Shown: positions 5,952-17,410 of the stretch, piece after piece
Position numbering within the stretch: the stretch's first letter is position 1
Layout: every line of letters begins with the position of its first letter
Assembly: GCF_000730425.1 (NCBI RefSeq)
Contig: NZ_CP008896.1
Coordinates: forward strand, 3,844,001 to 3,908,000
Direction of reading: 5' to 3'
Source: Pseudomonas fluorescens
Lineage (GTDB): Bacteria; Pseudomonadota; Gammaproteobacteria; Pseudomonadales; Pseudomonadaceae
Length of the DNA: 64,000 bases
The notes under the pieces: generated by a model
Seen by the model: the letters and a program-made list of their open reading frames with translations, nothing else
Databases searched by the model: none
What the model was told of the DNA's origin: nothing
Translations under genes and position numbers: made by a program

Positions 5952-7625
5952 CTACTGGGGCTTTGAATTGGACGCGATCATCTCCATGTATGCATTGCCA
6001 CCCATGGGAATATCATAACCTAGTGGCCCTTCCCATTGCCGCGAGACGCCGGTATTTCTAAGCATAACCTCAACCTTAATGCCGTCCTTAACCATGCTGT
6101 CTAAATTCCACTCGAAGTGATTTATGAGAGCCTGGCAGGCCACATGAGGTACTGTTGTCAATAATCTCAAGCTGGAGTTGTTTGGCGGTAACTTAAGCCT
6201 CGCGATCTCCGACATCGTCCATATAAATCTCCGCAACCTAAAATGCCAAAGAGACTCAAATTGAAGTTCAAGTTGAGCTGACAACAACGGGAAAGACTTA
6301 CGAGTCGCACGCTGCCTACTTACTTTTCGCGGCAAAAGTGCAAGCATGTTACTGATATTTACTCGCACCTGTTTTTGGGTGATGCGGTACAAGTTCTCAA
6401 CGCCCTCTATAAGAATAGTTGCGTATTTTTCGTCCTCATCGTTCACCGCCGGCTCGGCACTACTCTTCTGCATTACGTTCCCTGTAATTTTACTCAACAA
6501 CCAGTCCTTATCGTTTTCGTTGAGCCAACGGGTTACTTGATAAGCACTTACCCAAAGATAGTCCATACCAATGCCTGGCTTCACTTCAAGTAGCATTGAG
6601 ATTTTTTCTCGATAAGCCTTTTTCTTATGTTCTGGCAAAGTTTTCTCTTTAAGACGGACCGTCGGGTTTGCCGAGCTAGCAAGTAGAGACTCTTCTGCCA
6701 AGCATTTCTCAAACTTTTCTGCACATCCAAAAAGATGGAGAGATATTAAAAGATGCCTTGCCAACGGCATATCAATTTGACCTCTTGTTGTCGATAGCCT
6801 AATCCATTGACTTCGAATTCCAGCTGCGTATGCCAAATCAATTTTTGAAATAATTTTATCGCTGAACTTATCACGAATACTGCTAAATAATTTAGCTGTG
6901 CCAATTAGGTTCCCATGAACAAACCCTTGCTTCTTTGCTTGACGCCGATAACAAGCAGCCAAAACCGTATAATCTATCGATGGCAGATTGCGTTGCAGAA
7001 TATCATTTACAAAAACTGCAAACTCGCGCTCTTCATTTGAGGCGAGTGAGCGGTTCGCAGGTTTAACAGCGTTCCACCCGCAAGCACAATCATCGGTCAA
7101 CCCCGGTAACAATCGGTTTTTACGATAAAAAGGATGAGAGCAATTAGGGCAAGATTGAAGAAGTTCTTCACCATGTCGCCAGCACGCTGTAACGCCCGGT
7201 ACATGATGAGCTCGGTGCCAATATGCGTAGCCACACTCTATGAGGTCGGCCTGCACACAGGCCAAGCAAATTTTAGCTCTGCTATTCCTCGTACCTTCTC
7301 TCCTAGGCACTCGAGCGACATCAGATAAAACCTTGTCAAACTCCTTAGAGGGTTCTTTTGATAATCCTATAAAAGGTTTGTAGGCTGGGAACGTAGTGTT
7401 AATCTCAAGCAACTCAGCCAAGTTGCTTTCTTTAACTCCCGGCAATCGAGAAGCAAGGTTTTCTAATTGCTTCGGTATGATAGATAGCTGAAATGGCGCA
7501 ACGCCAAAAAGATCACGAAAGGTTTCTGCCTCGGTTTTGTTTCCGGACAAAAAATGGTATCTCGTAATACGAGATAATAGTGTCTCGTCTGGCATAGACA
7601 TTGGGAAAAACAGAATACTGGACAT
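5952..7625 (-). CDS. second TniQ/TnsD-family transposition protein
   Basis: A 557-residue TniQ-domain protein. It begins MSSILFFPMSMPDETLLSRITRYH, the typical FFP-x-PDE-LLSR start of TnsD/TniQ proteins. The zinc site is visible as C120-x2-C123, YWHRAHH (137-141), C148 and H151, with a further C159-x2-C162. TniQ proteins bind a target site (or a guide complex) and recruit TnsC. The start at 7625 is chosen by family alignment; an in-frame GTG at 7691 is possible. The gene is clearly more AT-rich than tnsBCD and is separated from tnsD by 317 bp, so it was probably acquired separately. A second target selector could give the transposon another insertion pathway. It is not recognisable as TnsE. 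Confidence 0.85.
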   Translation of the reverse strand: MSSILFFPMSMPDETLLSRITRYHFLSGNKTEAETFRDLFGVAPFQLSIIPKQLENLASRLPGVKESNLAELLEINTTFPAYKPFIGLSKEPSKEFDKVLSDVARVPRREGTRNSRAKICLACVQADLIECGYAYWHRAHHVPGVTACWRHGEELLQSCPNCSHPFYRKNRLLPGLTDDCACGWNAVKPANRSLASNEEREFAVFVNDILQRNLPSIDYTVLAACYRRQAKKQGFVHGNLIGTAKLFSSIRDKFSDKIISKIDLAYAAGIRSQWIRLSTTRGQIDMPLARHLLISLHLFGCAEKFEKCLAEESLLASSANPTVRLKEKTLPEHKKKAYREKISMLLEVKPGIGMDYLWVSAYQVTRWLNENDKDWLLSKITGNVMQKSSAEPAVNDEDEKYATILIEGVENLYRITQKQVRVNISNMLALLPRKVSRQRATRKSFPLLSAQLELQFESLWHFRLRRFIWTMSEIARLKLPPNNSSLRLLTTVPHVACQALINHFEWNLDSMVKDGIKVEVMLRNTGVSRQWEGPLGYDIPMGGNAYMEMIASNSKPQ

Positions 7626-7942
7626 GAGTAGCCGACTTCTAACGTGGGTTCTGGTAGGACGCGAGTCCTGTGGATGGTGTTCTTTTATCACATATCACCG
7701 TGTACCCGGGTAAGGATTTTTAAAAATGAACGCCATACAGTAGCGAACAGCCAGCAATTATTTTATTAGAAAACAGCAGTTTTTACGCCAGAGTCAAAAT
7801 ACAATACACCACACATATAAATACTTTCACTGCACGCCTCGTCAAAATTCACACATCGAATCCACGCACAGCTCATATATATAGAGGCTTGTGCCGACGG
7901 CGTTACAGAGCAATATTCATACGCGGATCAGGGTGCATTCAC
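7626..7942. other. AT-rich spacer between tnsD and the second tniQ
   Basis: Some 317 bp with no convincing coding frame. It contains AT-rich tracts such as GGATTTTTAAAAATG near 7715 and TCATATATATAGAGG near 7870, compatible with a promoter for the second tniQ gene, but no clear -35/-10 pair could be assigned. An alternative GTG start for that gene lies at 7691. Confidence 0.4.
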
Positions 7943-9622
7943 TCATATTTGGAGTTTTCTGAGACACGCTGTTCGATACAGCGCTGATTGAGTGATTGGC
8001 TTGCCGTCAAGTTTTAGCTTCCGCTCGGCCCAGCTCAGGCGCCGCCGATGGAATGCATCAAGGGTTTCGCATTCGGCTGCCAGTGCAGCCGCACAGTGCG
8101 GCAGCTTGTTGAGCTGCTTTTCAAACCTAGATAACACATGAAGCTCTCTGCCTATTTTTGTCCGTGAGATGCGGACAGGTTTACCTGGAAGCGCTCGTAA
8201 CATTTCAGCGCATTGAACCACTTCGTTGGCAAGGTCGAGGTCTTTGAATCTTTCTGCCTGCTGTCCGCGCGGTCTGTGGGCTTTACCTGGCTCTTGTGTC
8301 AGCTCGGACAGCCATTGCCGATCGTTTCGATGAAGCCACACATAATCTCGACACTCATGAGCTAGGCGAGCTCTGTATTCCCCGTCAAATCGGTTCCTCC
8401 TATCAACCAGAAGTTTCGAAAGCCTCGCCTCTTTCCATAGGTCAGGTCCATTCGAAATCGCGCGTATCATTCGATAGACGCATGTAACCGAGCTCCTTGT
8501 TTCTGACGCTATGGTTTTAGCGTTAGCCCCCGAGAGCGCCAGCGTCCAGATCGTTTCAGATGCCTCACTCATATACTCATTGGTGCTTGAGCGATTGGTT
8601 GGAGATCTGTTGGCAGCTCGTCCACAGGGAGTTTCGGTATTGGCAGTTCGACTAAGCGACTCGGTAATAGGACCGTTTGGCCGCAGTATCCTTTCCATGT
8701 CGACCTTGAGCGCACAGGCCAGCAGGATGAATTTCAGTGGATGATGGGTGCCCCTCGGCTTACGTAAAAGCTTCACAATCCAGGCCGCCGGTATATCCGC
8801 AGACGACTTGCTCAGTATCGAGTACTCCCCTGAGGAGGGGAGCCCCTCAAAGAATGCAGACATGTGTCGCGCCAAAATGCCTAAGTGCAGCCGACCAGTA
8901 TCGGAAGCCATTTTCAAGGCAATAGCGCTATCCAGAAACACCGAGCGAATCGCATCAGGACATAATGGCGGAACATCGGTCTCAAGCACCTGCATCGAAC
9001 GCTGCGCTATTTCGTGCAGAGCACTTTGTAGATTTTGAGGGATCTCTAGCGAAATGGAGTGAGACTGAACGTCCTCATCGTCCGGTAAATGCATTCTTCG
9101 AGAGTTTCTGCTCAACCAGCGGTAATCAAGGAGCCTCAACGGAGTTCCATGGTGGGGACAGATCAAAACGCCTGGAAGCTGATGCACACGGTGCCAGTAC
9201 GCTGCTCCCACACAGGCCATGTCCTGTTCGACACAGTCGAAGCAAAATCGCACTCTCGAAGCAAACTGGAGTCGGCTCGCGATTAACCCCAACCTTAGCA
9301 TCAACCCCTTGCCGTTTCCCGCCATCAAGATATTGGCGTCGCCCACCTGTTGCGGGGTCAAAAAAGGTTCGTAGTAGGGCAGTTGCGTATGGCGCTTTAT
9401 GACAGCGGCTAGCGATAAGCCTGTATCACACGGCAGCGCCTCGACAAGCTCAGCTAGTCGACATGGAAAAGCAACGTTCTGCGAAAAGCATTTCGCGGAC
9501 TGCGCTCCATCGAAAACTGCTGCGCAACTACGTACGCCACAGAGCCGGGCGTATCTTGAGAGAACGCTGTGAAGCGTCTCATCGTGGAAAACGGCCGGAA
9601 AGAAATGGAATTTGAGCCCCAT
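7943..9622 (-). CDS. tnsD: TnsD-like target-site selector (TniQ family)
   Basis: This 559-residue TniQ-family protein begins MGLKFHFFPAVFHDETLHSVLSRYA. The CCHC-type zinc finger is formed by C127-x2-C130, H144/H147, C155 and H158 (AYWHRVHQLPGVLICPHHG). In Tn7, TnsD binds the 3' end of glmS and directs insertion just downstream. The location of this element beside glmS and the gene order tnsABCD make that the likely role here. It starts 15 bp after tnsC and is probably in the same transcript. The C-terminal half, which reads DNA in TnsD, shows no motif I can name. It is unlike the other TniQ gene at 5952-7625 beyond the shared domain. Confidence 0.87.
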   Translation of the reverse strand: MGLKFHFFPAVFHDETLHSVLSRYARLCGVRSCAAVFDGAQSAKCFSQNVAFPCRLAELVEALPCDTGLSLAAVIKRHTQLPYYEPFLTPQQVGDANILMAGNGKGLMLRLGLIASRLQFASRVRFCFDCVEQDMACVGAAYWHRVHQLPGVLICPHHGTPLRLLDYRWLSRNSRRMHLPDDEDVQSHSISLEIPQNLQSALHEIAQRSMQVLETDVPPLCPDAIRSVFLDSAIALKMASDTGRLHLGILARHMSAFFEGLPSSGEYSILSKSSADIPAAWIVKLLRKPRGTHHPLKFILLACALKVDMERILRPNGPITESLSRTANTETPCGRAANRSPTNRSSTNEYMSEASETIWTLALSGANAKTIASETRSSVTCVYRMIRAISNGPDLWKEARLSKLLVDRRNRFDGEYRARLAHECRDYVWLHRNDRQWLSELTQEPGKAHRPRGQQAERFKDLDLANEVVQCAEMLRALPGKPVRISRTKIGRELHVLSRFEKQLNKLPHCAAALAAECETLDAFHRRRLSWAERKLKLDGKPITQSALYRTACLRKLQI

Positions 9623-9637
9623 TTCGTCACCCTTAAT

Positions 9638-11107
9638 TCACCCCTTCCGATACAACGGAGAAAACTCAAAGAGATCACTGCTTATCCAACCGGCGCTCTT
9701 CAACGCCTCAATGGAGTCTTCACTTTCACTTAGCGCCTGTGCCTCTGAGGTCTCAACCGCCACCGCCGCAGGTGACTGCGATTTGACTTGGTTAACGGCC
9801 GCCACATTAGGTTTGGTAGCACTATTGTCGCTGCGACTGATGACACTGCGCAGCAATGCCAGTCGCTCCGGCCGAGCCACACCATCGAACGCCATCATGT
9901 CGCTTAGTTGGTCTTCAATCGGAAGCAAATCATCGAACTGCCGCATCCGTTTCGGATCTCGGCTTCGCAGAGCGGACAAAGCTGGCTTCAATATCTGCAT
10001 CTTGGTGTTGCTCACCAACGCAATTGTCTCGGCGGTAACGCATTCCGAACCACTCTGGATCGCATACCTTTGACTGAGCACCAAAAGCTTCACCAAAAAG
10101 TCGGTGACCCCTTGTGTATGCTCATACAGCGCATCAAACACATCCTCTGTCAGTTCGACCGGCTGCTGGTACCACTGATAGCTCCAGAGGTTTTCAACAA
10201 GCATGCGCCACTCGTCATCGTCCTTCTCAAAACGTTTAAATTCGAGTACCCCGACGCCGCAGCAACGCCTTGCGTTGCGCATGACGTCCGAAAATAGGCT
10301 GATCATCGAATTTGTCCCGATGAACACCACAGGAATTCCGATGTTGTTCACTAGATGGAGGAAGAAATTCAGCATGTTGTCCTTGCCCCCAGTTTTCGCG
10401 AGGTGCAGGTTCTGAAGTTCGTCGATCAGCAAAGCTCCGATGAAAAATGTACTCGCAACCTGTTCCATTTGTTGCAACGAGTCATTGATGTTCCGAGCCC
10501 TATACCGCTTGTAGTAATCCTCATCACCTAAAGCTCGCCCGACCGCATAGAAAAATTGCTGACAGAAGCCTGCCAGCGAACCATCTCGGGGGCAGTCAAG
10601 CTTGAGCCAGGTGATCTGGGTATGAACGAACTGCTTTCCTTCATAACGCTCGTGGCGAATCGTTTGAGGGTAGAGACTCAAAATGGCTTCGAGTGCGGTG
10701 GACTTTCCAATGCCACTAAGGCCAACCAGACTGAACGTTTCGGCAGTGGACTTGAATCCATCGTGGTAGCGCTGTGCGCCCGAAAGTGAGTGAAGATGTC
10801 TGACAGTGTCTGGAGAGGTCGGGTTGCGTCCGACGTACCCACGTCGTACCAGCAATGAAAATACGGACTCCAGATCCATGTGGACCAACAAAGGCTGGAC
10901 CACCGTTCTCAAGCGGTCGATGCAGTGAACCCGAGTCGATCGGTCGAGGGTCAGCTCTTCTGGATCAACAGGACGGGGGAAGTTCGAGATTAGTTGCATT
11001 GCCACCTCTTCTGAGAAGATCGGTGGCAGCGCTTCGATGAGTGGATTTCCCGCGTAGTCCGCTATCGCCTGCTTCGTGTAGCTTGCGAAAACTTGGGCGC
11101 CTTTCAT
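9638..11107 (-). CDS. tnsC: TnsC-like AAA+ ATPase
   Basis: A 489-residue transposition regulator. Walker A is GLSGIGKST (residues 129-137) and Walker B ALLIDELQN (225-233), followed by an AAA+ sensor region around PVVFIGTNSM. In Tn7-like systems TnsC polymerises on target DNA with ATP, links the TniQ/TnsD target complex to TnsA-TnsB, and enforces target immunity. Length is somewhat below Tn7 TnsC (555 residues). Its ATG overlaps the tnsB stop (ATGA, 11104-11107), indicating coupled translation. The C-terminal tail contacts TnsA in Tn7; whether it does so here is moot because tnsA is broken. Confidence 0.92.
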   Translation of the reverse strand: MKGAQVFASYTKQAIADYAGNPLIEALPPIFSEEVAMQLISNFPRPVDPEELTLDRSTRVHCIDRLRTVVQPLLVHMDLESVFSLLVRRGYVGRNPTSPDTVRHLHSLSGAQRYHDGFKSTAETFSLVGLSGIGKSTALEAILSLYPQTIRHERYEGKQFVHTQITWLKLDCPRDGSLAGFCQQFFYAVGRALGDEDYYKRYRARNINDSLQQMEQVASTFFIGALLIDELQNLHLAKTGGKDNMLNFFLHLVNNIGIPVVFIGTNSMISLFSDVMRNARRCCGVGVLEFKRFEKDDDEWRMLVENLWSYQWYQQPVELTEDVFDALYEHTQGVTDFLVKLLVLSQRYAIQSGSECVTAETIALVSNTKMQILKPALSALRSRDPKRMRQFDDLLPIEDQLSDMMAFDGVARPERLALLRSVISRSDNSATKPNVAAVNQVKSQSPAAVAVETSEAQALSESEDSIEALKSAGWISSDLFEFSPLYRKG

Positions 11108-13272
11108 GAGTTTTGTCCTGGGCGGAGGCGTTTGAGCATATCGATAACCTGAGCGCTGCGAGGGCCGGCAAAGTTTTCTGAGCGATCTTGGGAGATCTCT
11201 GTCTTGAGCACAGGCGATTCAATCCTCACACCCTCTGGCACATGGGCGGTCTCACGCTCCTTGAGGCGCTCAACGGCGCGATTCTCACGAATATTTCCAA
11301 TCATCTCAGCTTTGGTCGCAGGCGCTGGCTCATCATTTCGCTCAGCGATCGCACCGCTGACGACTTTATTAACTTCCTCCAGCAACGAAATCCGACTCTC
11401 CAGCTCAGCACGTTTATGAGTCGGTGGAGTCTGGCGGTAAGCTTCGAGCAGATCGAAAATCTCATCGGATCGATAACCAGCATACTTGCTATCAGACTTA
11501 CGCAAATCGCAACGGATGAACTGTTTGTTGTCTCCCCGAATCCAAATATGTGCTGAGGAATTTGGGTCATACCAACACTCTATCGACCAAACCCCGCGGC
11601 TACGGGCCTTCGCAAACCAGTTGTTCTCGATCGCTACATCACAGACATAGTGCATCCCTCGGAATAGCACACCACCCTTTTGCACCGTCGCTTGCTCACG
11701 CGGAAGCAAATGGAGATAGACCATCTCGTCGGGATGATTGTTTGGTTCGACATGACCATTTTCTAATGCCCAAGTCCAGATACCTGACGGCGTCGGATCG
11801 ACACCGTCGTTCATCATCTCTTGAGTGAGCCTGTCGGGCTGCCTGTTGAAGCGGTTATAGTGAAGGACACACTGGATGATAATCTTGGTGAACTCTTTAA
11901 TGCTCAGCGTTGCATCGAGTCGGTAATCTCGCTCGCCACGTTCCTTCTCCCTAGCAGCTACACCACCAGGAAGCCACCTGATGCCTGTCAGGTTGTTCAG
12001 GATACCGAACCGGCTCTCAACCATCGACTTCCAGTCAGGGCGGTAAGGCGGAGCGATTCCCAGCTCGATATTCAGGCCAGTGGCAAGACCCTCAGCTGCT
12101 TTCCCCAACATCTCGCCTCGATCAGCGTAGATGTGATGTGGGAGGTGATGACAGGCCCATTCCTCTGAATCGATTGTGACCCCATTGGTAGCGCAAAACT
12201 CAACCTTCGAAGTGAAAGCGTTGAAAAGCGCTTGCCTGGCTCCGTTCCAACTCGGGCCCTCTAATCCGATATAGAGACCGACGATCATGCCGGAAAAGCT
12301 ATCAATGACGACGTACACAACCGGCCGTCCAATGAGCATTCGCCTGGAGTATCCGTTCACGAGATAAATGTCCGCAATGGTGGCATCGATCTCAAACTGA
12401 TGGCAGGGGCCACGAAGCCAGTCACGGACGGTTCCAGAAAGGGGGCGGCAATCTTTTAGCCACTTACGCATTCCCTTACGGCCACGTTCAGTTTCAACCT
12501 CGTCGAAATATTGCTTTCCCCAATAATCGAACTGTCTAAAGGAAGGAATTTCCGATTCGGGTAGCAAACGACCGCCTGATTCTGGATTTTTCGACAGGTC
12601 TTTCGCGGTATAGAACCTCCTGAGCATCTCAACATAGGCGTTGGTTATCGTAGAAGTCTTATCCCCGACAAATAACGAGTAGCCGATACGGATACAGCGC
12701 TTATCCACTGCATCGATAACCTTGGTCGGTGAAACGGCAATACCTTGATACCTTGGCTTCCTACCCGGGGGCTTTGCGGGATCATACTTGCGCTCAGGAA
12801 CTCCGACGCCCGCATAGTTTTTCAAGAGCGCATTTCGAACTTGGCCGTTGATCCAGTAACGGTACAGAAGCCGATAGATGCTCTTGCGCTGTATACCGAG
12901 CTCAACAGCTCTAGCGCCGACCATTTGACCCATCTCACCAGGAGCGAATATCTGACCTGGATAACCTGAGTCGATCAGGGGTGCGATGATGTTCCACTTT
13001 TCATCCCTTTCCCGCTTCTTTTTCTCATCCAAGTCATCCTCTAACACTAAGAGAAACTCAGGCGTAACGACCTTGGCTAGCTTCGTATCACCTGCAATGA
13101 CGGATCCGCGAAGCTCCTCCAGGCCTAAACCAATCGGTTGGCGGGGCGGATCCGTTAATTGGATCAAAACGACCGCATCGTATCGCTCATTGAGGTACAA
13201 GACCCTAACGAAGCCCGGCACGACGGAAAACTCAGTAAGCGGTTCGAAACAATCATTGACTTGGACTTTCAT
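11104..13272 (-). CDS. tnsB: TnsB-like DDE transposase
   Basis: This 722-residue member of the TnsB/MuA-type retroviral integrase superfamily is close to Tn7 TnsB in length (702). The catalytic triad is visible as D296 (HQFEIDATIAD), D384 (HHIYADRGEM) and E419 (WKSMVESRFG). The N-terminal part (about 95-200) contains helix-turn-helix-type DNA-binding segments expected to read the repeats at the transposon ends. It makes the 3'-end cuts and strand transfer. The start ATG overlaps the tnsA stop (ATGA, 13269-13272). With the IS element inserted upstream, its transcription may be reduced or driven from the IS. Confidence 0.93.
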   Translation of the reverse strand: MKVQVNDCFEPLTEFSVVPGFVRVLYLNERYDAVVLIQLTDPPRQPIGLGLEELRGSVIAGDTKLAKVVTPEFLLVLEDDLDEKKKRERDEKWNIIAPLIDSGYPGQIFAPGEMGQMVGARAVELGIQRKSIYRLLYRYWINGQVRNALLKNYAGVGVPERKYDPAKPPGRKPRYQGIAVSPTKVIDAVDKRCIRIGYSLFVGDKTSTITNAYVEMLRRFYTAKDLSKNPESGGRLLPESEIPSFRQFDYWGKQYFDEVETERGRKGMRKWLKDCRPLSGTVRDWLRGPCHQFEIDATIADIYLVNGYSRRMLIGRPVVYVVIDSFSGMIVGLYIGLEGPSWNGARQALFNAFTSKVEFCATNGVTIDSEEWACHHLPHHIYADRGEMLGKAAEGLATGLNIELGIAPPYRPDWKSMVESRFGILNNLTGIRWLPGGVAAREKERGERDYRLDATLSIKEFTKIIIQCVLHYNRFNRQPDRLTQEMMNDGVDPTPSGIWTWALENGHVEPNNHPDEMVYLHLLPREQATVQKGGVLFRGMHYVCDVAIENNWFAKARSRGVWSIECWYDPNSSAHIWIRGDNKQFIRCDLRKSDSKYAGYRSDEIFDLLEAYRQTPPTHKRAELESRISLLEEVNKVVSGAIAERNDEPAPATKAEMIGNIRENRAVERLKERETAHVPEGVRIESPVLKTEISQDRSENFAGPRSAQVIDMLKRLRPGQNS

Positions 13273-13502
13273 GATAGGCCCTCCGCCGTCAGTGAAATTT
13301 TCATTGGTTTCTCAATGATTTCAAATGTTGGTAGTGGTGCAGTCATTTGAATGGGAGTACCAACCAAATCTACCTTGATCGACTTAGCCCATATCAGGTG
13401 ATGATATAAAGCCCGAGAGTCTTGATAGGAGATAAATAAACGTGCGGCAATCTTTCGCAGAGATTCAGCAGTACTCCACGGGTAGGGACGACAGCTCGCT
13501 AA

Positions 13503-14671
13503 GGAAGCTCCGATCAACTTGCCGCAACCGTGCGGCAAGTTGAAAATCCCGCTGAATTTGGCGCTATTGACCGCGAAATATCCCGTACGCGCCGCCTTGG
13601 CGAGCTTGTCAGCCCATTTCTCCGTGTTACGCGCGTAATTAGCCCATACCCATCAGCTTTTTTCGAGCCATCCATAAATTGGACAAGGCAAACAGCGTGG
13701 TCAATTGAGCGGTGTTTTTCATCAGGCCGCGAAAGCGCACTTTCACATAACCGAACTGACGTTTGATCACCCGAAATGGGTGTTCGACCTTGGCCCGTGT
13801 CTGGGCTTTGAGGTACTCGATTTTGCGCTTGGCTTTGTACAGCACGCTGCGCTTGCTCAGCTTGGAATAGGTGCTGCGTCGCGCGGCGATTTGCCAAACC
13901 ACTTCACGGTTTTCATGCTCTTCGCGCTTCTCGACACCGGTGTAACCAGCATCGGCGTAGACCGCGTTTTCCTCGCCGTGCAGCAGTTCGGCAACCTGAG
14001 TGACATCGGCTACATTCGCCGCGGTGCCGTGAACGTGGTGAACCAGCCCCGACTCAACGTCGGCACCAATATGGGCCTTCATTCCGAAGAAATATTGATT
14101 GCCTTTCTTCGTCTGATGCATCTCTGGATCGCGTTTACCGTCCTCGTTTTTAGTCGAACTGGGCGCGTGGATAATCGTCGCATCGACGATGGTGCCCTGG
14201 CGCAGCGAGAGGCCTTTCTCCTGCAAATAACCGTTGATGACCGCCAGGATCGCCGGCGCCAACTTATGTTTCTCCAGCAGGTGCCGGAAGTTCATGATCG
14301 TGGTGTCTTCAGGGATCGGCGCGCTCAGGGTCAAGTGCGCAAACTGGCGCATGGGCGTGATTTCATACAGCGCTTCTTCCATGGCAGGATCGCTCAGCGA
14401 GAACCAGTTTTGCAGCAAGTGAATGCGCAGCATGGTTTCCAGCGGATACGGTTTGCGGCCACCGCCAGCCTTCGGATAATACGGCTCGATCAACGCCAGT
14501 AAACCGCTCCAGGGCACGACCTGATCCATCTCGGCGAGGAACCGTTCGCGGCGTGTTTGCTTGCGCTTGCCCGCGTATTCGAAATCGGAAAAGCTCATCT
14601 GGCTCATGAAGCACTCGGGTCAGGTGGTGAGGCTGTATTTCAGCATACTTGGAGACTTGTTCGGAGTTTCC
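13503..14671 (-). mobile_element. IS5-family insertion sequence
   Basis: A 1169-bp element inside tnsA. Its terminal inverted repeats are imperfect: GGAAGCTCCGATCAACTTGC at the left end and, read from the right end on the minus strand, GGAAACTCCGAACAAGTCTC. Both resemble the start of IS5. It is flanked by the 4-bp direct repeat CTAA (13499-13502 and 14672-14675), matching the YTAR target preference of the IS5 group. It has one transposase gene. The single clean duplication and the intact frames around it suggest a recent insertion. Confidence 0.93.
13639..14607 (-). CDS. IS5-family transposase
   Basis: A 322-residue DDE transposase very similar to the IS5 protein along its whole length. It has DUF772-type N-terminal segments (GGGRKPYPLETMLRIHLLQ, about 48-66) and the catalytic residues D142 (TIVDATIIHAPSS), D219 (VYADAGYTG) and E275 (AKVEHPFRVIKRQFG). 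The length equals that of intact IS5 transposases and no stop or frameshift interrupts it, so the element may be active. It is transcribed in the same direction as the tns operon. About 135 bp of non-coding IS sequence separates its stop from the left inverted repeat. Confidence 0.95.
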   Translation of the reverse strand: MSQMSFSDFEYAGKRKQTRRERFLAEMDQVVPWSGLLALIEPYYPKAGGGRKPYPLETMLRIHLLQNWFSLSDPAMEEALYEITPMRQFAHLTLSAPIPEDTTIMNFRHLLEKHKLAPAILAVINGYLQEKGLSLRQGTIVDATIIHAPSSTKNEDGKRDPEMHQTKKGNQYFFGMKAHIGADVESGLVHHVHGTAANVADVTQVAELLHGEENAVYADAGYTGVEKREEHENREVVWQIAARRSTYSKLSKRSVLYKAKRKIEYLKAQTRAKVEHPFRVIKRQFGYVKVRFRGLMKNTAQLTTLFALSNLWMARKKLMGMG

Positions 14672-15456
14672 CTAAGTGCCCCAGAAAATCTGTGTGTAAT
14701 GATGGCTCTGCCAAGGCGCGCGGCAGTTGAGCGAACTTCCTGAGTAAGCCTAAATTTTTGATCAAATCGGGGCTGAACATTTCTTCGGTGACAATGGCCC
14801 AATCAACGTGTTGGCCAGTCCAGAAACGCTTTTCGATCTCAAATTTTTCCAACGTCCTCCTGGCTTTTTTGCCTTCGAGGTCACTGCGGTATTTGATTGT
14901 TCTGGCTACGGATTTAAAGCTGCCATCGGGCTTTTTTATCGTTAATAAAAAATCCGTGGTCATAACGTAAGGAAGCACTGTCTTCGGATACTTCGGGTAT
15001 CGCACTCCCATAGAGCTCGCGATTGCTTGAGCACTTTCTCGCGGTAGCAGTGGATACTGTTCGCGTATATCCACAACATTTTCCGAAAATTCACATACCA
15101 AAAAATAAGCGCGTTCGAGGTCAGAAAAGAGGTGGTGGAGACGATCGATCTTCACACCTTGGATCTTGTGGGAGCGTCCTCTGGAAGGCACGTCTTGGAC
15201 GCGCAGCCACGGCAGATAACTGGCACCAGCTCCGCTACCGAATCCATTCGAAATATGCCGCTGAATATCTGTCTCAGACGAAAACCTACGACCGCGCAAT
15301 GCTACCTCCTTCGTCCGCCGGGACCGCCTCTCCTCGCCCTGAAAAATAGTTATAGGAAAAAATCGCCCACCACCTGTTCATGGTACAGCCCTCTTTAGCC
15401 TACTCCCGGAGCGTGGCGAAGCGGAGAATCTAGACCGATGGCTCAGCCAAAAAATG

Positions 15457-15482: not shown

Positions 15483-15489
15483 GGCCTTG

Positions 15490-15549
15490 TGTCAATCTAT
15501 GTTACGGCGTGTCAATCTTTATTGTTAAGTGTCAATCTTTATTGTTAGA
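15490..15549. repeat. three tandem 20-bp TnsB-type binding repeats at the transposon right end
   Basis: The repeats start at 15490, 15510 and 15530. The two outer ones share an identical 18-bp block (TGTCAATCTTTATTGTTA) and the innermost is diverged (TGTCAATCTATGTTACGG). Read on the minus strand each gives AACAATAAAGATTGACA, which shares ACAATAAAG with TnsB sites of Tn7. The head-to-tail arrangement without gaps resembles Tn7-R, the end that faces glmS. Confidence 0.85.
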
Positions 15550-15613
15550 AGCCACCTGTCACAGGTTTGGTACTGCCTTACTCAACCGTCACCGACTTGG
15601 CCAGGTTGCGCGG
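15550..15613. other. attTn7 region: glmS 3' end and transposon junction
   Basis: The last glmS codons (15578-15613 on the minus strand, encoding [10 protein letters not shown]) are the conserved TnsD recognition site of Tn7-type elements. The following 28 bp contain the junction. A TGT-type end would begin at 15563 reading inward. The canonical spacing of about 25 bp from the stop would put it near 15552, where no TGT is present. I cannot decide between these without the empty site. Confidence 0.6.
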
Positions 15614-17410
15614 CTGGTCAACGTCGGTGCCCTTGAGCACCGCCACGTAATACGACAGCAGTTGCAACGGGATGGTGTAGAGGATGGGCGACAGGGTGTC
15701 ATGGATGTGCGGCATGTTGATGACGTGGGTGCCTTCACCGTTGGTCATGGCGGCCTTTTCGTCGGCGAACACGATCAGTTGGCCGCCCCGGGCGCGGACT
15801 TCCTGCAGGTTGGATTTGAGCTTCTCCAGCAGTTCATTGTTCGGCGCAACGGTGACCACCGGCATGTCATCGTCCACCAGGGCCAATGGGCCGTGCTTGA
15901 GTTCGCCGGCCGGGTAGGCTTCGGCGTGGATATAGGAGATTTCCTTGAGCTTCAGGGAGCCTTCCATTGCCACGGGGTACTGTGCACCACGCCCTAGGAA
16001 CAGGGTGTGGTTCTTGTCGGCAAACAGCTCAGCGACTTTCTCTACCGTGCTGTCCATGGCCAGGGCTTCGCCCAGGCGGGTCGGCAGGCGACGCAGTTCT
16101 TCTACCAGGGTGGCTTCGACGCCTTCGGCCAATGTGCCGCGAACCTGGCCCAGGGACAGGGTCAGCAGCAGCAAACCCACCAACTGAGTGGTGAAGGCTT
16201 TGGTGGACGCTACGCCAATTTCACGACCGGCCTGAGTCAGCAGGGTCAGGTCAGATTCACGCACCAGGGAGCTGATGCTGACGTTGCAGATCGCCAGGCT
16301 GGCCAGGTACCCCAGTTCTTTAGCATTACGCAAGGCGGCCAGGGTGTCGGCGGTCTCGCCGGACTGGGAGATGGTGACGAACAGGGTGTCGGGTTGCACC
16401 ACCACCTTGCGGTAGCGGAACTCACTGGCGACCTCGACTTGGCACGGAATACCGGCCAACTCTTCCAGCCAGTAACGGGCGACCATGCCGGCGTGATAGC
16501 TGGTACCGCAGGCGACGATCTGTACATTACGCACTTTGGCAAACAGCTCCGCGGCTTGCGGGCCGAAGGCGTTGACCAACACCTGGTGCTGGCTCAGGCG
16601 ACCTTCCAGGGTGCGTTGCACCACGGCCGGTTGCTCGTGGATTTCCTTGAGCATGAAGTGACGGAACTCGCCCTTGTCGGCGGCTTCGGCGCCGTCGCGA
16701 TACTGCACGGCTTCGCGCTCGACGGAGTTGCCGTTGACGTCCCAGATCGCCACGCTTTCACGGCGGATATCGGCGATATCGCCTTCTTCCAGGTACATGA
16801 AGCGGTCGGTGACCTGGCGCAGCGCCAATTGGTCGGAGGCGAGGAAGTTCTCTCCCAGGCCCAGGCCGATCACCAACGGGCTGCCACTGCGGGCGGCCAC
16901 CACACGGTCCGGCTGGCTGGCGCTGATGACCGCCAGGCCATAGGCGCCATGCAATTCCTTGACCGTGGCCTTGAGGGCGGTGGTCAGATCGCTATGGTCC
17001 TTGAGCTTGTGGTTGAGCAGGTGAGCAATGACTTCGGTGTCGGTGTCCGAGGTAAAGACGTAGCCCAGGCCCTTGAGTTGTTCACGCAGCACTTCGTGGT
17101 TTTCGATGATGCCGTTGTGTACCACCGCAATATCACCGGAGAAGTGCGGGTGGGCATTGCGCTCGCACGGCGCACCGTGGGTCGCCCAGCGGGTGTGGGC
17201 GATGCCCAGGCGGCCAACCAGGGGCTCGCCGGCCAGGGCCTGCTCCAGTTCGCTGACCTTGCCCGGGCGACGCATGCGTTCAAGCTTGCCAGCATTGCTG
17301 AAAACCGCCACCCCGGCACTGTCGTAGCCACGGTATTCCAGGCGCTTGAGGCCCTCGAGCAAAATGGCGGTAACGTTTCGTTCAGCAACTGCGCCTACAA
17401 TTCCACACAT
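15578..17410 (-). CDS. glmS: glutamine-fructose-6-phosphate aminotransferase (glucosamine-6-phosphate synthase)
   Basis: A 610-residue enzyme that makes glucosamine-6-phosphate from fructose-6-phosphate and glutamine, the first step to UDP-GlcNAc. The N-terminal glutamine amidotransferase domain starts MCGIVGAV with Cys2 as the nucleophile after Met removal. Two SIS sugar-isomerase domains follow (about 290-425 and 460-600; CGTSYHAG and SQSGETADT are visible). The extreme C-terminus NLAKSVTVE is intact, so the transposon insertion has not damaged the gene. It starts 10 bp after glmR with a GGAGAG ribosome-binding site. Confidence 0.98.

Follow-up and report, generated by a model that had tools for sequence, protein, structure and literature searches.

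Two TnsD-type target selectors in a Tn7-like element of Pseudomonas fluorescens, one predicted to serve glmS and the other a short sequence on mobile DNA

We analyzed a 64,000-nucleotide stretch of the Pseudomonas fluorescens chromosome (the window, G000:C1:3844001-3908000), which contains the right part of a Tn7-like element of 51,471 bp (∼51.5 kb) carrying two TniQ/TnsD genes. Both ends of the element were found, and it is inserted behind its homing target glmS (15578-17410, - strand, with SIS and glutamine amidotransferase domains). The right end (15489-15554, - strand) contains three repeats resembling TnsB sites (GATTGACAC) and terminates in TGG, not TGT, at position 15554, a terminus common to its relatives. 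This position lies 23 nt past the glmS stop codon, in agreement with the ∼20-25 bp expected for a glmS-type TnsD insertion. The left terminus maps to genome position 3808084, 35.9 kb before the window, and a 5-bp target duplication (CCTGT) is found on both sides of the element (right copy at 15555-15559, + strand; left copy at window -35921 to -35917, genome 3808079-3808083).

Inward from the right end, the gene order is tnsA, an insertion sequence (IS) of the IS5 family, tnsB, tnsC, TniQ1, TniQ2, and arsenic and copper genes. TnsA-, TnsB-, TnsC-, and TniQ-type proteins are all recognized by Pfam, with tnsA interrupted in this copy. Its N-terminal part (14640-15299, - strand, 219 amino acids, Tn7_TnsA-like_N) is separated by the IS5-family transposase gene (13639-14607, - strand, DDE_Tnp_1 and DUF772) from a detached C-terminal part, an 89-residue frame (13269-13538, - strand) that has no Pfam match and by eye resembles the end of TnsA from uninterrupted relatives. 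The split thus spans window positions 13269-15299; in relatives such as loci L085 and L090, tnsA forms an unbroken frame of ∼284 residues. As its tnsA is interrupted, this particular copy may not move by cut and paste and is perhaps handicapped. The transposase gene tnsB (11104-13272, - strand) encodes 722 amino acids with a Mu-transpos_C match, and tnsC (9638-11107, - strand) encodes an AAA ATPase of 489 amino acids with AAA_22 and TniB matches.

Behind tnsC, two TniQ/TnsD genes follow in tandem, as the original prediction from this DNA had stated: TniQ1 (TnsD; 7943-9622, - strand, 559 amino acids) and TniQ2 (5952-7625, - strand, 557 amino acids counted from an inner ATG, the open frame beginning at GTG 7691). 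Both have Pfam TniQ and TnsD matches that exceed the cut-off. The 317-bp gap between them (7626-7942, 43.8% G+C) and the higher AT content of TniQ2 were likewise borne out (44.4% G+C versus 52.9% in TniQ1, 52.6% in tnsC, and 51.8% in tnsB). A zinc finger had been proposed for TniQ2, and we find eight residues (Cys-120, Cys-123, Cys-148, His-151, Cys-159, Cys-162, Cys-180, and Cys-182) invariant across 41 TniQ2-type proteins, a set consistent with a zinc-binding region. TniQ1 and TniQ2 are alike over approximately the first 155 residues (32% identity by tblastn) and can be aligned over nearly their full length by profile comparison (23%). The best Protein Data Bank match for structure models of both is Tn7 TnsD. 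The TniQ2 model resembles TnsD residues 1-318, and Pfam and the model together reveal a TnsD-type layout, with a TniQ domain and a long C-terminal TnsD-type part. NCBIfam contains no model for either protein.

A phylogeny of TniQ proteins, suggested at the outset as a check, places TniQ2 in a clade distinct from that of TniQ1 and of the large TniQ proteins of 12 other fetched glmS-inserted elements. Of the 58 proteins in this tree, 20 rows form the TniQ2 group (support 99/98), where the single TniQ of elements from Burkholderiales is also placed, and 30 rows form the TniQ1 group (98/96), which includes the large TniQ of other glmS-inserted elements; short TniQ-like proteins fall outside both. 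With TniQ2, the Burkholderiales proteins can be aligned almost end to end (33-34%), but with TniQ1 only over approximately residues 7-162. A candidate chimera was noticed at L162:6062-8099 (genome G599), where matches suggest a TniQ1-type front and a TniQ2-type end.

Relatives were sampled from 47 loci of named genomes and, in addition, from genomes of the genus and family and from plasmids. With TnsB as query, 23 of 398 genus genomes matched at E 1e-150 (19 of these with at least 69% identity) and 20 of 398 family genomes at E 1e-200, the genus and family sets overlapping; the order-level search returned only the window's own genome (1/390). Right ends adjoining glmS amount to 68 copies, corresponding to 32 distinct flanks, as the same sites recur in overlapping loci. 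In addition, we collected 22 non-glmS, non-tandem insertion sites, 18 of them on plasmid records (all except L040, L079, L088, and L090). L090 (genome G138) adjoins conjugation genes of an integrative and conjugative element (ICE) and defense-like genes; IS3-type genes replace TniQ1 and the end of tnsC there, and we rejected this locus as proof of TniQ2 acting without TniQ1. The sites are few and stem from deposited sequences, and all evidence presented here is comparative. Loci were merged when they represent the same site (L061 with L085; L101 and L102 with L087). Tandem insertions, in which the right end abuts another Tn7-like end (L041, L045, and L048; L163 and L175 are the same sites), were set aside, as were L200 and L203 as test sites because no right terminus was recognized in either. 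L046, L051, L057, L068, and L069 have no usable right flank, and TniQ2 is present without tnsABC in the stretch examined of L106-L108 and L055.

Homologues of TniQ2 are hence not confined to glmS-inserted elements: TniQ2-type elements also occur on plasmids and in an ICE, which supports the earlier suggestion that TniQ2 provides an alternative pathway to another chromosomal or plasmid site. Elements carrying the same TniQ1 and TniQ2 pair are found at both kinds of location. Genome G320 contains two copies, one at glmS (L089) and one at a non-glmS site (L088), which are 99.94% identical over 8.2 kb, and the tns genes of the window are 99.8-100% identical to those of L088 outside the IS. Three further glmS/plasmid pairs (L059/L085, L062/L109, and L053/L105) are 97.3-99.4% identical.

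Inspection of the non-glmS sites revealed a common motif, which starts 47-52 bp outside the right end in 18 of 22 cases. At twelve sites it is a box, [A/G]GGAAA, after which nC and a start codon usually come; at the other six it is a hairpin followed by GTAnnAGG. At box sites, the right end joins ∼48 bp downstream of the box in a single orientation, with a 5-bp duplication. Among the first 12 sites, L087, L088, L103, L104, and L105 have AGGAAA or GGGAAAA at 47-49 bp, and L085, L086, L090, and L111 have a hairpin and then GTAGAAGG or a close form at 50-52 bp. Ten sites were added later (L079, L176, L177, L193, three in L195, L199, L201, and L202). The strict rule fits seven of these (expected 0.07, P 4e-14), and a widened rule ([AG]GGAAA, GTA[CG][ACG]AGG) fits nine (expected 0.075, P 1e-19); the background was estimated from the same strand of the respective DNA over up to 3 kb. 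In the more distant elements L191 and L192, which are outside the 22 sites, no box could be found by eye. The minimal TnsD site of Tn7 spans +23 to +58 (PMC2918618, in the part available to us), and the position of the box falls inside this stretch.

Target-site duplications were verified at four sites. In L105, the element lies at approximately codon 11 of an array gene and is flanked by GCGCA. L195 contains two 395-bp miniature, non-autonomous Tn7-like elements (at 11356 and 10761, - strand), each with both ends and with duplications AACAA and CCCGC; the two occupy separate boxes within one array, both at a spacing of -48. A third miniature element of 399 bp again has both ends (L199:2501-2899, duplication TGATT), and all three are located on plasmids. 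These miniature elements reveal the target but not the protein that reads it, because they contain no selector gene.

The association of selectors with targets can be followed in elements carrying one large TniQ. In Pseudomonas, the other fetched elements with a TniQ1-type large TniQ are all inserted at glmS (12/12). Three Burkholderiales elements (L079, L176, and L177) combine tnsABC with only a TniQ2-type protein, as far as the 10-15 kb seen beyond it, and none is next to glmS. The original prediction had proposed to map the insertion sites of such elements in search of a shared flanking gene. Two of the three have the box (L079 and L176, at -47 and -48). A flanking gene shared by the plasmid sites was rejected, the upstream frames looking unrelated. 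In a Polaromonas element (L193), the box is found at -48, and a TniQ2-type gene lies in pieces ∼30 kb away. TniQ1 is thus most likely the glmS selector, as predicted from insertion site and clade, and TniQ2 is most likely the selector of the recurrent box on mobile DNA, a predicted plasmid pathway that would work without TnsE. For the target, left unspecified in the original prediction, we can put forward a hypothesis: a box at a constant distance and in a constant orientation.

Tn7-like elements are known to pair a route into a safe chromosomal site with a route into mobile DNA. For the present element we favor two direct, protein-guided pathways that share TnsABC, TniQ1 leading to glmS and TniQ2 to the box or hairpin on plasmids and ICEs, and we assign this reading a probability of roughly 0.8 from the sequence comparisons. 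TniQ1 would bind the end of glmS and bring the element behind it; TniQ2 would bind around the box, or the hairpin with GTAnnAGG, in small-gene arrays of plasmids and ICEs. Either selector would then recruit TnsC and subsequently TnsAB, as Tn7 TnsD does, and TnsAB would join the right end at a fixed distance from the target sequence. The glmS route would keep the element in the chromosome, and the TniQ2 route would load it onto plasmids and ICEs. Near-identical elements at both target types, fixed spacing, and the linkage of each selector clade to one target type are what we observe.

Several findings weigh against this assignment. Four of the 22 sites lack the motif (L040, L109, L110, and L177), and L177 is one of just three elements with TniQ2 as the single selector. 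A second selector may be encoded elsewhere on the Burkholderiales replicons, our view covering 10-15 kb beyond TniQ. The conserved core of the motif is short, and it was derived from the same first 12 sites that it describes. L079 and L176 were already known when the strict rule was written, and across the eight sites read last this rule fits only five; the widened rule fits seven of the eight, having been widened after the third L195 site (L195c) and L199 had been seen. In the phylogeny, the tree program warned of long branches and possible false joins, and in seven of the 12 comparison elements at glmS, a short TniQ-like protein accompanies the large one.

TniQ2 could instead be a redundant or decaying second glmS selector, with the non-glmS copies arising from off-target events. 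The majority of chromosomal copies with both proteins are indeed at glmS, and some TniQ2 genes are broken or interrupted (in G005, in the second copy of G320, and in Polaromonas). However, the ratio of nonsynonymous to synonymous substitution rates in seven element pairs is 0.08-0.15 for TniQ2 and 0.19-0.42 for TniQ1, with TniQ2 lower in each pair, which indicates that TniQ2 is under purifying selection. Together with the common motif at fixed distance and the location of the three single-TniQ2 elements away from glmS, this makes a decaying selector very improbable. At synonymous sites, TniQ2 is more diverged than tnsC and than TniQ1 in all seven pairs, and the gene may therefore have a partly separate history.

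Alternatively, TniQ1 could serve both targets, and TniQ2 could have another role, such as regulation. This would agree with the finding that every dual element at a box retains TniQ1 or remains of it, except for L090, where it is deleted; we nevertheless hold it to be very unlikely, as L079 and L176 are inserted at a box although no TniQ1-type protein was seen in their vicinity, and the TniQ1-type comparison elements are uniformly at glmS. Least likely is that plasmid insertion proceeds via replication or conjugation structures or a local TnsB preference, with the box a bystander of gene-dense arrays: most sites are on plasmids, Tn7 TnsE works through lagging-strand structures (PMC11406308, in the passages available), and the arrays are rich in boxes, but the box is fixed at 47-52 bp although boxes recur just 0.3-2 times per kb even in arrays, the motif is missing from all 32 distinct glmS flanks made by the same transposase and from 4/4 left-end sides tested, and a profile search of this genome gave no TnsE_C match (the same search being silent in all 14 control genomes too).

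The proposed two-selector arrangement resembles several known systems, which are described here from the parts of the sources available to us. Tn7 uses TnsABC with TnsD at glmS and with TnsE on conjugal plasmids (PMC11406308). It shares with the present element a heteromeric transposase, TnsC, a TnsD-type glmS selector, a 5-bp duplication, fixed orientation, and one chromosomal and one mobile-DNA target, but in place of TnsE the second selector here is a further TnsD-type protein, predicted to target a sequence. Faure et al. (2023, PMC10293859) report 998 loci with two tniQ-tnsD genes in one element. The second protein of such loci is as a rule far smaller and is thought to act through a partner, whereas here both exceed 550 amino acids and the second target is proposed from insertion sites. 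Like the Tn5053 family, the element appears to be steered to plasmid sites by a TniQ; that family, however, uses a single TniQ and resolvase resolution sites (PMC11406308), where we propose a box at gene boundaries and a separate TniQ for glmS. In a CRISPR (clustered regularly interspaced short palindromic repeats)-associated transposon with two TniQ proteins, one serves glmS and the other mobile DNA, but the latter works with CRISPR-Cas; here, no Cas genes were recognized among nine cargo proteins run on Pfam or by eye in the open reading frame lists, no dedicated Cas/CRISPR scan having been made. Tn6411 of Pseudomonas aeruginosa is also Tn7-like, inserted at glmS, and has relatives on plasmids, but it is described with TnsABCDE, and its plasmid location is credited to TnsE (PMC11232968).

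A two-pathway life, dual TniQ loci, and the steering of TniQ to plasmid sites are thus already in print (PMC11406308, PMC10293859). A Burkholderia survey describes tnsABC-tniQ metal islands, and its available passages name no such target (PMC10702557). Another survey, again available in part, reports plasmid insertions in elements without identifiable tnsE and lists plasmid target-selecting genes that are as yet unknown as one possible cause (PMC8649781). The literature we searched, with most subscription journals outside its coverage, contains no account of an element with two full-length direct selectors, one of them for this target. Our finding offers a concrete candidate for a plasmid target selector, a second TnsD-type protein predicted to aim at a gene-boundary box that recurs on one plasmid, and a short motif to test. 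If correct, this solution would rely neither on a conserved gene nor on a replication structure or guide RNA, and it would add another natural protein-guided target; the second aiming protein could also explain how the element spreads.

On plasmids, the boxes are found repeatedly where small genes follow one another head to tail. Of 46 listed array genes, 16 show AGGAAA or GGGAAA by eye no more than ∼20 nt from the start, in many cases overlapping the preceding stop. Sense-strand boxes before ATG reach 1.2-2.0/kb in seven of eight array stretches (0.31/kb in L176), compared with 0.06-0.16/kb per strand over seven whole loci and 0.10/kb in the window's chromosome. Over 11.2 kb of array, AGGAAA precedes ATG 15 times (19 times with GGGAAA), and seven rearranged hexamers do so 0-3 times each. 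A tyrosine-recombinase gene or its C-terminal part is located near the arrays in L105, L109, and L090, with L102 below the Pfam cut-off. The box could represent a ribosome-binding site whose sequence is kept uniform across these arrays, or it could mark a recombination boundary. It is conceivable, although we would not count on it, that TniQ2 hunts boundary sites (box or hairpin) of tyrosine-recombinase-linked cassette arrays of an undescribed kind on plasmids and ICEs. The element could then enter any array-bearing mobile DNA, independent of one particular gene.

The array runs (L105:6076-9450, L102:10555-12898, and L109:9873-13201), with alike boxes before many starts and a tyrosine recombinase near by, are possibly an undescribed cassette-array system in their own right. 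A dispersed hairpin-GTAGAAGG-hairpin repeat is found on Pseudomonas plasmids (L111:13084-13150, L086:11920-11985, and L085:13104-13169), and the L111 flank is matched by 41 plasmid records. Rfam searches of L085, L086, and L109 returned no match above the gathering score, which does not support a known RNA family. Elsewhere in the P. fluorescens genome, two more TniQ-domain genes have distant TnsB-like genes near them (G000:C1:4758261-4758734, L001; 739630-740010, L004). Inside the element, before the window, lies a defense set resembling a cyclic oligonucleotide-based antiphage signaling system (CBASS), with a SMODS cyclase, an E1-E2-type protein, and a SAVED-HNH effector (L196:6987-11219).

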